Below are positions 4,280 to 23,673 of a DNA stretch of 61,447 nt, piece after piece. This stretch comes from an uncultured bacterium. GTDB lineage: Bacteria; Cyanobacteriota; Vampirovibrionia; Gastranaerophilales; Gastranaerophilaceae. The stretch is from NCBI GenBank assembly GCA_946636615.1, contig CAMPBE010000005.1, forward strand, positions 1 to 61,447. The letters run 5' to 3'. Each line of letters begins with the position of its first letter. Position 1 is the stretch's first letter. The notes under the pieces were generated by a model. The model was not told the origin of the DNA. It ran no database searches and saw only the letters and a list, made by a program, of their open reading frames with translations. Both the position numbers and the translations under genes were made by a program.

Positions 4280-5398
4280 TTAATTTAAATTTTTAACAAA
4301 ATCAGAAATTTCATAGGCATTAATAGTACCAACAATGATTTTATAATCTTTTATTTCTTCTTCCATTTCTTCTTTCATATGTGCCAACAATCCGGGGATT
4401 ATTATTTTTCTTGTCTTTACTTTGTCCCTTAATCCAAATTTTTCAATAGTTTTTGCAACAATTTTTGTCGTAAACTTTTCTGCTGACCAAGCCGTTAAAA
4501 CACTCATTCCGTCAGACGGAACAACCAATAAATATGACGGAACGGAAAGGCTTTCAAGCTCATTTGCGACAGCAAAATATGTCAAGGCAAAATTAGTTGT
4601 CATAAATATTATCGAATTTTCATCTGGATTATTAAATTCATACAATTTAGGTTCAACTTGCAGCGGTTTTTGAGGGTCTGTAAAAATATTTTGTCTCAAT
4701 GTCAATAAAACCGATATCAGATTCTCATCAAAATCTTCAAAAACCAACATGTTAGCATATTTACATATATAATAAGATGCCTCGGCACACAAAGTGTCTA
4801 AATCATCTGTATGCTTGAAGTAGACGTAGACAGGGTCGGAATACTTTTCATCTTTTTCTAATATCGCCTTTTCGCGCATTTTAATCAAATTTTGAGATAC
4901 TAATTTAAAATCATTATTTTCAATTTTGATTAAAGGTAATTTTAGGAAATCTTCATAAAGGATTGTGCGATTGGGTAATGTACCTGAGTAGTTTTTTAGT
5001 ATTACAAAATCTATTTTTAAAATTTCGTTTACTCTTTTAATCTCAAAATTTAAGACTTTGTCAAGTTTTTCTTTCCAATCATCTTTGGAAGTATCAATAA
5101 CAACTGAAATTGCAGTGCGGTTAATAAAGGTTTTTTCGTGCCTGAAAAGAACATTTTCACCTCCGACTTTCACTCCGCAAATTTCAACTGTTTTTTGTGG
5201 CTCTATTGAATTTTGATTGTATAAATCAATAAGTTCTTTAGGTGCATAAGGGCATTTTTCAATCTCAACTTGATGTTTAGCTAATTTCAATCCAAATGCC
5301 ATACATGTAGGGCACCCGCATTCTTTACAATTTGTGTGTTCAGCCTTTTTGGCTGCCGGTAAATATTTAAAAATCTGTAATCCTGATAATTCGCTCAT
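4280..5398 (-). CDS. acsC: Corrinoid iron-sulfur protein, large (gamma) subunit, shortened
   Basis: The protein is homologous to AcsC/CdhE, which carries a methyl-cobamide and a [4Fe-4S] cluster in the Wood-Ljungdahl pathway. The N-terminal cluster motif is intact: C24-x2-C27-x4-C32-x16-C49. The C-terminal about 110 residues match the corrinoid-binding domain, with TTNFALTYF, the VLTAWSAEKF helix and the IIIPGLLA segment. At 372 residues it is clearly shorter than the usual about 440-450; the loss is in the middle TIM-barrel region. It overlaps acsD by ATGA, implying translational coupling. No CO dehydrogenase or acetyl-CoA synthase gene is nearby. The likely role is as a methyl carrier for the core methionine synthase at 22586 (inference). 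Confidence 0.85.
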   Translation of the reverse strand: MSELSGLQIFKYLPAAKKAEHTNCKECGCPTCMAFGLKLAKHQVEIEKCPYAPKELIDLYNQNSIEPQKTVEICGVKVGGENVLFRHEKTFINRTAISVVIDTSKDDWKEKLDKVLNFEIKRVNEILKIDFVILKNYSGTLPNRTILYEDFLKLPLIKIENNDFKLVSQNLIKMREKAILEKDEKYSDPVYVYFKHTDDLDTLCAEASYYICKYANMLVFEDFDENLISVLLTLRQNIFTDPQKPLQVEPKLYEFNNPDENSIIFMTTNFALTYFAVANELESLSVPSYLLVVPSDGMSVLTAWSAEKFTTKIVAKTIEKFGLRDKVKTRKIIIPGLLAHMKEEMEEEIKDYKIIVGTINAYEISDFVKNLN

Positions 5399-6051
5399 GC
5401 TATTTTCCTTATTGTTTTAATTATTTCAGGATTGTTAATTACAACATAATCTGCTCCTGCTGCAATTACACCGGATACCGCAGCAATTTCTAAATACTTT
5501 GACATATTTATATCTTTAGCTTCCTTTGTTTTTAAAGTTTCTTCAGATGCAAAAGATATAACAGGTTTGTCTAAAAATCTGTCTTTTGTTTTCTCCAGCT
5601 TAATTTTTTCCATAATGCTGTATCCGTACTCAAAACCATATCCGATTCCGCCAATATCAGGGTCAATTAAAATTTTTTCTAATCCCATATCTCCGGTTAG
5701 TATATTCATTTCTTTCGCTAAATTAATATCAATTGGAGTTCTGATAATAACAGTATGCCCACCATCTACGGCATAAGGTACAATCTCTCTATAATTATTT
5801 TCATTAACAATGCCGACTATGCATTCTCTATCTAATATTGAAATTAATTTCGGTAAAAGGCTTTTATCAATATCATCATCGCCCGAACCTCGAACCATTA
5901 TCGGCTTATTGATAACAGGAAGAAGCCTTTTTAAAATCTTGGCTTCTTCTATATTTGAAAATTTTATTCCTAATATATCACAATCTTGATTAAGAAATTT
6001 TTCAGCATCAGCAGCAGCTACTTCAAGAATTAATTTAACCTTGTCTCTCAC
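5395..6051 (-). CDS. acsD: Corrinoid iron-sulfur protein, small (delta) subunit, shortened
   Basis: This 218-residue protein matches the TIM-barrel of AcsD/CdhD. Recognisable segments are [14 protein letters not shown], the [18 protein letters not shown] turn and IMEKIKLE, all in the family order. The usual subunit is about 310 residues; here the N-terminal extension and some peripheral parts are missing. It partners with AcsC to form the corrinoid iron-sulfur protein. The start overlaps the end of ftsH by 17 bases and its end overlaps acsC by 4, so it is co-transcribed and probably coupled with both. Confidence 0.82.
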
Positions 6052-21004: not shown

Positions 21005-21853
21005 TTATTGCCTTAATGCTTTAGTGCCTTCAGCTAATTCAACTGTATTAAGCATCAAAGATGCTATCGTCATGGGACCAACACCCCCGGGAACAGGTGA
21101 AATATACGATGCTAATTTTGAGACATTTTCAAATTCCACATCGCCGCGAATTTTCCCCTCATTATCTCTAAAAATTCCAACATCAACTACTACACAATTA
21201 TTTTTAATATATTTTTCCCCTACAACATTTTTTCCCACTGCTGAAATTAATATATCAGCAGTTTTTGTTATGTCTGCAAGATTTTTTGTTTTGCTGTGAC
21301 AAACAGTAACCGTTGCATTTCTGTTTAATAACATTTGGGCAACAGGTTTGCCAACTAAATTTGACCTACCAATTACAACAACATGTTTGCCTTCTACCTC
21401 AATACCATATTCATCCAACAGCAAAAGTATTCCTTTGGGTGTACAAGGATATACATACGGTTTTTCTCCTGTAAAGAGTTTTCCACTATTATATGGGGTT
21501 AAACCGTCAACATCTTTCTCCGGAGAAATTGCATCTATTATTTTAAACTTGTCAATATGTTCAGGTAAAGGCAACTGAACCAAAATGGCAGTAATATTTT
21601 TATCAGAATTTAATTCTTTAACCTTACTCAATAATTCATTTTCACTGATATTAGATGGATATTTAATAACAACAGAATTTATACCCAAACTTTCAGCTGT
21701 CTTCTTTTTATTATTTACATAAATTTGACTTGCAGGATCATCTCCAACAAGAACAACTGCAAGAGTAGGTTTTACCGGCATTTTATCAAGTTTTGATTTT
21801 AAGTCAGCAAATATTTTGTCTCTAAGCTTTTTCCCGTCTAAAATAACTGTCAT
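21005..21853 (-). CDS. folD: Methylene-THF dehydrogenase / methenyl-THF cyclohydrolase
   Basis: A 282-residue bifunctional enzyme that interconverts 5,10-methylene-THF and 10-formyl-THF. Signatures: YVNNKKKTAE with the catalytic Lys, VQLPLPEHID, PCTPKGILLLL, the Rossmann VVIGRSNLVGKPVAQML and the PVPGGVGPMTIA motif. Length is normal. It is the last gene of rplI-core metE-cooC-folD and overlaps cooC by ATGA, tying folate one-carbon flow to the methionine synthase upstream. Confidence 0.97.
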   Translation of the reverse strand: MTVILDGKKLRDKIFADLKSKLDKMPVKPTLAVVLVGDDPASQIYVNNKKKTAESLGINSVVIKYPSNISENELLSKVKELNSDKNITAILVQLPLPEHIDKFKIIDAISPEKDVDGLTPYNSGKLFTGEKPYVYPCTPKGILLLLDEYGIEVEGKHVVVIGRSNLVGKPVAQMLLNRNATVTVCHSKTKNLADITKTADILISAVGKNVVGEKYIKNNCVVVDVGIFRDNEGKIRGDVEFENVSKLASYISPVPGGVGPMTIASLMLNTVELAEGTKALRQ

Positions 21854-22596
21854 TCCCTCACCTGTGGCAAATTCAATCTGAAATAAAATTGCTTTATAGA
21901 ATTTTGTATTAATTTAGAATCTTTGACTACAGAATCAATATTTTCATCTGTAGGAATCACACCCAACACGTCAATATCGAACCTTTTTAAAAACTCATAT
22001 AAAGAAGACAATTTACTATTATCAACTTTATTTATTACGACTCCGAGCTGGTTACCTGCTGCATATTTTGCGCTAAATTCTTCAATACGTTTTGCAAGAT
22101 GAGCACTCTCATCAGACGGATTTGCAACTATCAATGTTGTATCAATATCAGTATCAACAAGTTGATTTAAATATTTTAAATCAAATTCACAATCGAATAT
22201 CACAATGTCATATCTATCAATAATTTTCAGCACTGCATCATTTATCTGACCTGTAATTGGGCATCTGCAATCCTTTGAACCAACAAACCAAGATACTATA
22301 ATATCTACATTTTCGTCAAGTGATACAAGAATATCTTCCATTGCCCATTCTACGTACTCTTGTTTTGACATACCTTCAGGAATACCGGTCTTATATTCAT
22401 GTTTTCCACTTCTTATACCATAAATAGTATTCCTTATATCAAGCCCAAAACTATGCCCGAGCTCCCCTGTCAAATCATTATCAAACAGTAAAATTGATTT
22501 TTCGGGAAAATATTCCTGAAAAATTCTCAAAAAAGCTTTTACTATTGTTGTTTTTCCACTCCCGCTTTTACCTGTAACTGCTAATTTAAATGTCAT
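21850..22596 (-). CDS. cooC: CooC-like ATPase (CODH/corrinoid-protein maturation type)
   Basis: A 248-residue SIMIBI-class P-loop ATPase. CooC and AcsF relatives insert nickel into CO dehydrogenase/acetyl-CoA synthase. Visible: deviant Walker A GKSGSGKTT (residues 9-17), LLFDND (switch I), and the C110-x-C112-P motif matching the metal-binding CxC of CooC dimers, then IVIFDCEFD (Walker B) and VINKVD for nucleotide base binding. No Ni-enzyme gene is in the window; the gene is wedged between core methionine synthase (11-base overlap) and folD (4-base overlap). It may therefore serve the corrinoid iron-sulfur protein or methionine synthase (inference). Confidence 0.82.
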   Translation of the reverse strand: MTFKLAVTGKSGSGKTTIVKAFLRIFQEYFPEKSILLFDNDLTGELGHSFGLDIRNTIYGIRSGKHEYKTGIPEGMSKQEYVEWAMEDILVSLDENVDIIVSWFVGSKDCRCPITGQINDAVLKIIDRYDIVIFDCEFDLKYLNQLVDTDIDTTLIVANPSDESAHLAKRIEEFSAKYAAGNQLGVVINKVDNSKLSSLYEFLKRFDIDVLGVIPTDENIDSVVKDSKLIQNSIKQFYFRLNLPQVRE

Positions 22597-23665
22597 AATA
22601 CCTTTCTTTTAAACAGTCTGATAGCTCTCTTGTCAGTCTCATCGCCTTGTTTGCTAATTCTTCATTTAATGAACCAGCTCCACAAGACGGAGTGATTATA
22701 GAATTTCCTATGATAATTTTCTCATCAATTCCTTTTTTGGTCAAATAGTTAAGCGCTTTTTCAAAAACAATTACTAAATTTTCTAAATTTATTTTTGTCA
22801 AAGCTTCAGCATCAAGCGTAGGAATTAACCCCCACGCAATTTTTCCTCCATTTTCTAAAAATGGCTTTAGTTCTTCACTATACAAACTCAAATTTTCACT
22901 ATATGAATAAGCATCAAAATTTATAATATCAACTCCGGCTTTTATTGGCAAGCTCCAATTACATTTTCCACAACAATGTATAGCACTGAGAGCTCCATTT
23001 TGTTTTATAGCATCAGATAATGTACGCAAAATTTCAATAATATTTTCTTCAGAAACAGAAATAAAAGCAGAAGTCCCAAGTTGTGACAAAGTCGGCTCAT
23101 CAATAAATATAATCGGTACCGTTTCACTATTTGCCAATTTTATTTGTTTAATTTGCCACAAAGCTTTTATTGTAAGAGTTTTCAATATAATATCTGACAA
23201 AGTATCATCATAAAAAGCACACTTTCCGCTTTTGTCAACCAAAGTTGTAGCAAGTGTAAACGGACCAACAACTTGACCCTTTGCGAATTTGGGTTTTGTG
23301 TCTTTTATTATTTCTAATAGTTTTGGAAATGCCAAAGAACTTTTTATTGCATATTTTTCAATCTCATCACAATTTATATCAGAAATTATTTCTTCGTAAT
23401 CCGCAAAAAATTCTTCAATATCTTCAAAAAACTTGTCGCTTTCAGTTTCAAGATAAGTTTTTTCACCATCTACAAAAAACGAAGGCATATTGTCAAGAAA
23501 TTGAACAATCATGTCTTCGTTTTTATTAATTTTAGCTAATTGTGGCCAAAATGGAATAGTTTTAAAATTTTCGTTTACTAATTCCATAGCTTTTTCTAAA
23601 TTATTGTGAGGTAATGAACCTATTGCCAAACATTCTAACGATAATTCAGAAAAAGTTTTTTTCAT
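22586..23665 (-). CDS. Core (folate-independent) methionine synthase, MesB/core-MetE type
   Basis: The 359-residue protein corresponds only to the C-terminal catalytic barrel of MetE, with no N-terminal folate-binding half. Zinc ligands appear as H230-x-C232 (HCC) and C328 in TPSCG; the family IDEP motif is at about 189-192. Such core-MetE/MesB enzymes, known from Dehalococcoides and other anaerobes, take the methyl group from a methyl-corrinoid protein and give it to homocysteine. Shortened AcsC and AcsD in this window are the natural donors. Start is the ATG at 23665 after AAGGTGAT; an in-frame TTG lies one codon earlier. It is 8 bases after rplI. Alternative: a uroporphyrinogen-decarboxylase-like methyltransferase, less likely given the MetE-type zinc site. 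Confidence 0.8.
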   Translation of the reverse strand: MKKTFSELSLECLAIGSLPHNNLEKAMELVNENFKTIPFWPQLAKINKNEDMIVQFLDNMPSFFVDGEKTYLETESDKFFEDIEEFFADYEEIISDINCDEIEKYAIKSSLAFPKLLEIIKDTKPKFAKGQVVGPFTLATTLVDKSGKCAFYDDTLSDIILKTLTIKALWQIKQIKLANSETVPIIFIDEPTLSQLGTSAFISVSEENIIEILRTLSDAIKQNGALSAIHCCGKCNWSLPIKAGVDIINFDAYSYSENLSLYSEELKPFLENGGKIAWGLIPTLDAEALTKINLENLVIVFEKALNYLTKKGIDEKIIIGNSIITPSCGAGSLNEELANKAMRLTRELSDCLKERYYDI

Positions 23666-23673
23666 CAATCACC

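Follow-up and report, generated by a model that had tools for sequence, protein, structure and literature searches.

Gastranaerophilales bacteria probably make methionine by a four-protein, B12-dependent relay that replaces MetH, in which a corrinoid iron–sulfur protein (CFeSP) is dedicated to methionine and the CooC-like ATPase encoded beside the synthase has a more general role, a reading that we hold with good confidence. It is drawn from gene content, residues, the predicted fold and patterns of co-occurrence, clustering and co-loss in a 61,447-nucleotide stretch of DNA from an uncultured Gastranaerophilaceae bacterium (the window), in its genome and across its order. In this relay FolD and MetF would produce 5-methyl-THF, the methyl group of which an AcsE-type methyltransferase (MeTr) would pass to cob(I)alamin on the two-subunit CFeSP (AcsC–AcsD, window positions 4280-6051), after which zinc-bound homocysteine thiolate in the core synthase would accept the methyl group and leave as methionine. 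Methyl flow in this direction, contact between CFeSP and synthase and a reducing system for cob(II)alamin are what we infer. CO dehydrogenase (CODH) and acetyl-CoA synthase (ACS) would take no part, so that CFeSP would be dedicated to methionine, while the CooC-like ATPase, on the same transcript as the synthase, would be dispensable for the route and have a general function linked at most to FolD.

Genes of the proposed methyl route in the window and its genome

The core synthase (22586..23665, minus strand), recognized by its motifs, predicted fold and alignment with homologues, comprises the catalytic barrel of MetE only. Its open reading frame spans 22586-23668 on the minus strand, with a TTG start followed by an ATG at 23665 that has AAGGTG upstream, and encodes 360 or 359 aa with the motifs AIGSLPH at position 15, IDEP at 189, HCCG at 231 and TPSCG at 326. 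The zinc ligands form an H-C-E/D-C set (H231, C233, D252 and C329) and the homocysteine residues are of MetE type, S18 (in AIGS) and D190 (in IDEP) being assigned by motif against MetE S433 and D599 (PMC7857596); ligands and homocysteine residues alike are invariant in an alignment of 13 diverse catalytic homologues. Counted from the second ligand, Asp252 is 19 residues farther along the chain and the final Cys 96, the corresponding spacings in MesB being 19 and 95 (PMC7857596).

The synthase gene overlaps that of the CooC-like MinD-family ATPase (21850..22596, minus strand) by 11 bp, and the latter overlaps folD (21005..21853, minus strand) by 4 bp, exactly as given in the preliminary description of this DNA; FolD, a methylene-THF dehydrogenase/cyclohydrolase, makes methylene-THF, the substrate of MetF. 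The order synthase–CooC–FolD is seen again in most of the named Gastranaerophilales contigs that have sufficient flanking sequence and is therefore far beyond chance. A cluster coreMetE–CooC–FolD–MeTr occurs in outgroup families as well as in seven named contigs, and MeTr has MetF as its neighbor in genus g13. No riboswitch was found near these genes in Rfam.

Left unremarked in that description, the corrinoid donor itself is encoded in the same window as the synthase. The AcsC/CdhE-like large subunit of CFeSP (4280..5398, minus strand) has an N-terminal [4Fe-4S] motif, a C-terminal corrinoid domain and a shortened TIM barrel, and matches PF04060 (Fe–S, E = 3.5e-10), PF03599 (E = 7e-55) and NF003195 (322.7 bits, above the cut-off of 306). 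The AcsD/CdhD-like small subunit (5395..6051, minus strand; 4-bp overlap with AcsC) is shortened to 218 aa and scores 150.6 bits against a cut-off of 280, the N-terminal part of a full-length barrel being missing. Compared with outgroup families, AcsC lacks about 70 barrel residues and AcsD its N-terminal part plus an internal segment, and the shrinkage is stepwise within the family (window 4280-6051; loci L076-L085), from about 455 to 372 aa for AcsC and from about 310 to 218 aa for AcsD. Perhaps surfaces needed only for acetyl-CoA synthase have been lost; in the genus of the window the shortening could also mean decay. Acetogen AcsCD (PDB 2h9a, 4djd, 9fzy) has the Fe–S domain, the corrinoid domain and the two subunits in common with this CFeSP, whereas its subunits are longer (about 445 versus 372 aa and about 310 versus 218 aa) and the CFeSP of the window has no acetyl-CoA synthase partner. 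The AcsD–AcsC group and the synthase–CooC–FolD group share a strand of the window, with about 13 kb between them, and in a relative (L164) rplI–coreMetE–CooC–FolD–ftsH–AcsD–AcsC form a single same-strand run. At Gastranaerophilaceae loci acsD–acsC follow an ftsH-like gene, and in some outgroup genomes (L076, L077, L082) they follow fliF/fliG/fliI-like flagellar-operon genes, named by inspection of their sequences.

The genome of the window, whose named relatives are Candidatus Gastranaerophilales (Melainabacteria), measures 1.66 Mb over 83 contigs at 98% completeness. It further encodes an AcsE-type MeTr (contig C43) and MetF (contig C10). It contains no MetH/BHMT homocysteine domain (PF02574), no member of the Prismane/CODH family (PF03063) and no acetyl-CoA synthase domain (PF03598), the last being absent from all 146 genomes of the order as well, so that neither the acetyl-CoA synthase nor the CO dehydrogenase of a Wood–Ljungdahl pathway is found in this genome. 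Three B12-binding matches, considered as alternative methyl-corrinoid donors, were set aside as they look like radical-SAM proteins by their motifs. The genome search for MetH, acsA/acsB and acsE proposed with the preliminary description thus returned only an AcsE-type MeTr, and its suggestion that methionine is made from methyl-corrinoid agrees with CFeSP in the window, MeTr and MetF in the genome and no MetH, ACS or CODH found. There is good support for methionine being made from a corrinoid protein.

Distribution across the order

The survey covered 146 genomes of the order, mostly metagenome-assembled. Synthase, CFeSP, AcsE-type MeTr and MetF are nearly all-or-none: all four are intact together in 90 genomes, that of the window included, and 40 genomes with CooC hold none of them intact (27 have no synthase relative, 10 only a divergent homologue and 3 a truncated synthase). 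The synthase goes with CFeSP in 98 of 100 genomes versus 1 of 46, the Fisher tests on these counts ignoring relatedness. Together, clustering and co-occurrence are the signature of one pathway, which would run from methylene-THF via methyl-THF and methyl-CFeSP to methionine. In a tree built on CooC+FolD from 35 genomes, the presence of CFeSP changes at least seven times, and in G117, G035 and G070 the synthase is cleanly absent between rplI and CooC, with CFeSP, MeTr and MetF also missing elsewhere.

Incomplete sets are few. MetF alone is missing in three genomes, a ligand-intact synthase occurs without CFeSP in G058 and G080, and five genomes of genus g5 (G054, G057, G069, G112 and G142; loci L035, L200 and L201) have synthase and CFeSP without MeTr, MetF or acetyl-CoA synthase. 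The divergent core-MetE homologues of CFeSP-less genomes have lost the zinc ligands in all three cases aligned (L048:6576-7622, L049:6464-7525 and L050:6752-7825; 27-32% identity), and Chloroflexales MesB-like proteins are likewise reported without them (PMC7857596). In the close relatives G062, G066 and G083 the synthase is truncated to about 290 aa, with residues ~66-110 missing (L051:5793-6665 in G062), and CFeSP, MeTr and MetF are absent, with CooC and FolD intact.

MetH was found in 3 of the 146 genomes; these carry MetF, and CFeSP, MeTr and an intact synthase are all absent from them. MetH here (L074:3802-8299 in G113; also G106 and G125) consists of two neighboring open reading frames of 891 and 614 aa. 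Each has PF02574 and the second is fused to an MTHFR domain; MetH was seen only where the CFeSP module is missing. Core synthases of Gastranaerophilales type (52-53% identity) also occur in two records titled Fusobacterium sp. CAG:439 (L138, FR900437.1) and uncultured Clostridia (L187, CAMEWS010000031.1), which are probably mislabelled bins.

The CooC-like ATPase

The CooC-like protein has a GKSGSGKTT P-loop and the pair C110-x-C112, within the sequence DCRCP, so that the C-x-C-P metal motif noted earlier is indeed present. Both the deviant Walker A motif and the C-x-C are conserved, K10, C110 and C112 being invariant in 24 homologues; the metal site of CooC is C112/C114 (PMC6006190). CooC1 is the best PDB match by sequence (E = 1.3e-8) and ranks first in Foldseek with the predicted structure, its VIA Z of 19.2 being tied with MinD and FlhG. 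CooC1 of Carboxydothermus hydrogenoformans (PDB 3kje) is likewise a MinD-family ATPase with a C-x-C metal motif, but identity is 22%, its P-loop reads GKGGVGKTT rather than GKSGSGKTT, and the genome of the window holds no CODH/ACS client, PF03063 being absent there and PF03598 from the 146 genomes.

Of the 146 genomes, about 143 carry the CooC–FolD pair, and 45 of these lack CFeSP; most of the 45 have no relative of core-MetE, or a divergent one only, the others being truncated and relict cases. In all CFeSP-less loci read, CooC adjoins folD; the conserved partner of CooC is FolD, not the synthase. In CFeSP-less genomes, purifying selection acts on CooC (dN ~0.1-0.3 versus dS > 1, near saturation), the C-x-C of which is invariant, and its function is therefore independent of the methionine route. 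The proposal in the preliminary description that CooC serves this route is not supported, CooC–FolD having been kept in the 45 genomes at low dN/dS and CooC having stayed through at least seven changes of CFeSP on the tree, and the new role claimed for CooC is unlikely in that exact form. The ATPase is probably not specific to the methionine route.

A dedicated ATPase of this kind, maturing the CFeSP/synthase pair or activating it by ATP-driven reduction, would account for the overlap of the synthase and CooC genes, for the place of CooC inside the coreMetE–CooC–FolD–MeTr cluster of outgroup families and for the invariant C-x-C, and it would supply an activator that is otherwise missing because RACo, the known corrinoid activator, was found in only two genomes of the order (family f2). 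We consider this role improbable given the same retention of CooC–FolD at low dN/dS in 45 CFeSP-less genomes and a tree on which CFeSP came or went at least seven times and CooC stayed. CooC may nevertheless hold a role in the methionine route in addition to another.

CooC here is an orphan, nearly universal though acetyl-CoA synthase is absent and CODH absent or nearly so. A Prismane-family protein of about 526 aa (L070:4448-6028 and relatives) was considered as a CODH-like client and rejected, being a divergent hydroxylamine reductase/hybrid-cluster homologue that occurs in most of the order and is absent from the genome of the window. Among the Prismane matches examined, a single true CO dehydrogenase was seen, a protein of 633 aa in G009 (L071:4857-6758; TIGR01702, 820 bits), and G002 has a Prismane protein of the same size; both genomes have RACo and neither has acetyl-CoA synthase.

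Fold of the synthase, remaining readings and meaning

At the level of sequence families the synthase is weakly placed. Pfam gives no match to the MetE domain PF01717, the URO-D family model scores 17.7 bits, and the methionine synthase model NF002119/PRK00957 matches at E = 5e-7 with 29 bits, below its cut-off of 258 bits; these weak scores are shared with MtaA/MtbA and URO-D. Because a sequence-only PDB search returned spurious matches only (repeat proteins), an AlphaFold2 model was built from 21 relatives (pLDDT 93). Among solved structures, MesD (3rpd) comes closest to this model with Z 25.7, together with the catalytic half of MetE at its C-terminus (Z ~25); uroporphyrinogen decarboxylase (Z ~20) and a Methanosarcina methyltransferase (Z 19.7) score lower. 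The model aligns with MetE residues about 389-733, the N-terminal folate domain being absent. The MetE barrel identity, weak by sequence, is thus settled as to fold by the structure model. The description of a lone catalytic barrel with HxC, TPSCG and IDEP motifs stands, in a protein of 359-360 aa with all these motifs, as does its structure-model check, the predicted fold being that of the MetE catalytic half and MesD. The shared weak family scores would also suit a zinc methyltransferase for another thiol acceptor, like the CoM methyltransferases MtaA/MtbA, which we judge very unlikely since the fold is nearer to MetE/MesD than to the Methanosarcina enzyme or URO-D, the HCDC set, spaced as in MesB, is conserved alongside the IGS and IDEP homocysteine residues (PMC7857596), and the synthase is linked to MeTr and MetF in genomes without MetH.

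The closest known system is MesB, the core-MetE of Dehalococcoides mccartyi, also a single MetE barrel without folate domain, with the same HCDC zinc set, the Asp 19 residues past the second ligand and CFeSP as predicted donor (PMC7005905, PMC7857596). MesB organisms are linked to the Wood–Ljungdahl pathway, and D. mccartyi, without MetF and AcsE, takes the methyl group from acetyl-CoA via acetyl-CoA synthase (PMC7005905, PMC7857596). Unlike D. mccartyi, the genome of the window has MetF and an AcsE-type MeTr and no acetyl-CoA synthase; by motifs and published descriptions, the system appears to be a new variant of the MesB/CFeSP route. That CFeSP receives its methyl group from elsewhere than methyl-THF, as with the acetate-derived methyl group of Dehalococcoides, and that MeTr is incidental, would fit the five g5 genomes with synthase and CFeSP and neither MeTr nor MetF, but is highly improbable against MeTr and MetF in 90 genomes including that of the window; acetyl-CoA synthase was found in no genome, and the Dehalococcoides route is therefore closed. 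We give almost no credence to the genes being a decaying Wood–Ljungdahl remnant without current function, as the missing ACS, the shortened CFeSP subunits and the truncated synthase of three close relatives might suggest, against four parts intact together in 90 genomes, invariant zinc and substrate residues and a set that is lost as a whole, as expected of a working module. The split MetH/MtgCDE of marine Rhodobacterales (PMC12478193) is likewise divided into pterin, corrinoid and homocysteine proteins, but uses other corrinoid and homocysteine modules in place of CFeSP and a MetE-type barrel. In the literature we found no report of such a system in Gastranaerophilales/Melainabacteria.

With the folate-fed relay to methionine as the preferred reading, CFeSP seems to serve methionine synthesis alone across a whole order made up mainly of gut bacteria, with acetyl-CoA synthase gone, and methionine synthesis in Gastranaerophilales is predicted to be B12-dependent. 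The CFeSP of the window could be studied as a natural minimal form of the protein, and the at least seven changes of module state allow a comparative check on which genes are part of the module. Also exposed is the orphan CooC-type ATPase, the role of which is now a concrete question. In our estimate there is somewhat less than an even chance that CooC-type ATPases have a client outside CODH/ACS, perhaps in folate one-carbon metabolism, as the pairing with FolD in nearly every genome of the order would mean, and that the ACS-free CFeSP has become a dedicated, shrinking methyl carrier for the core synthase.
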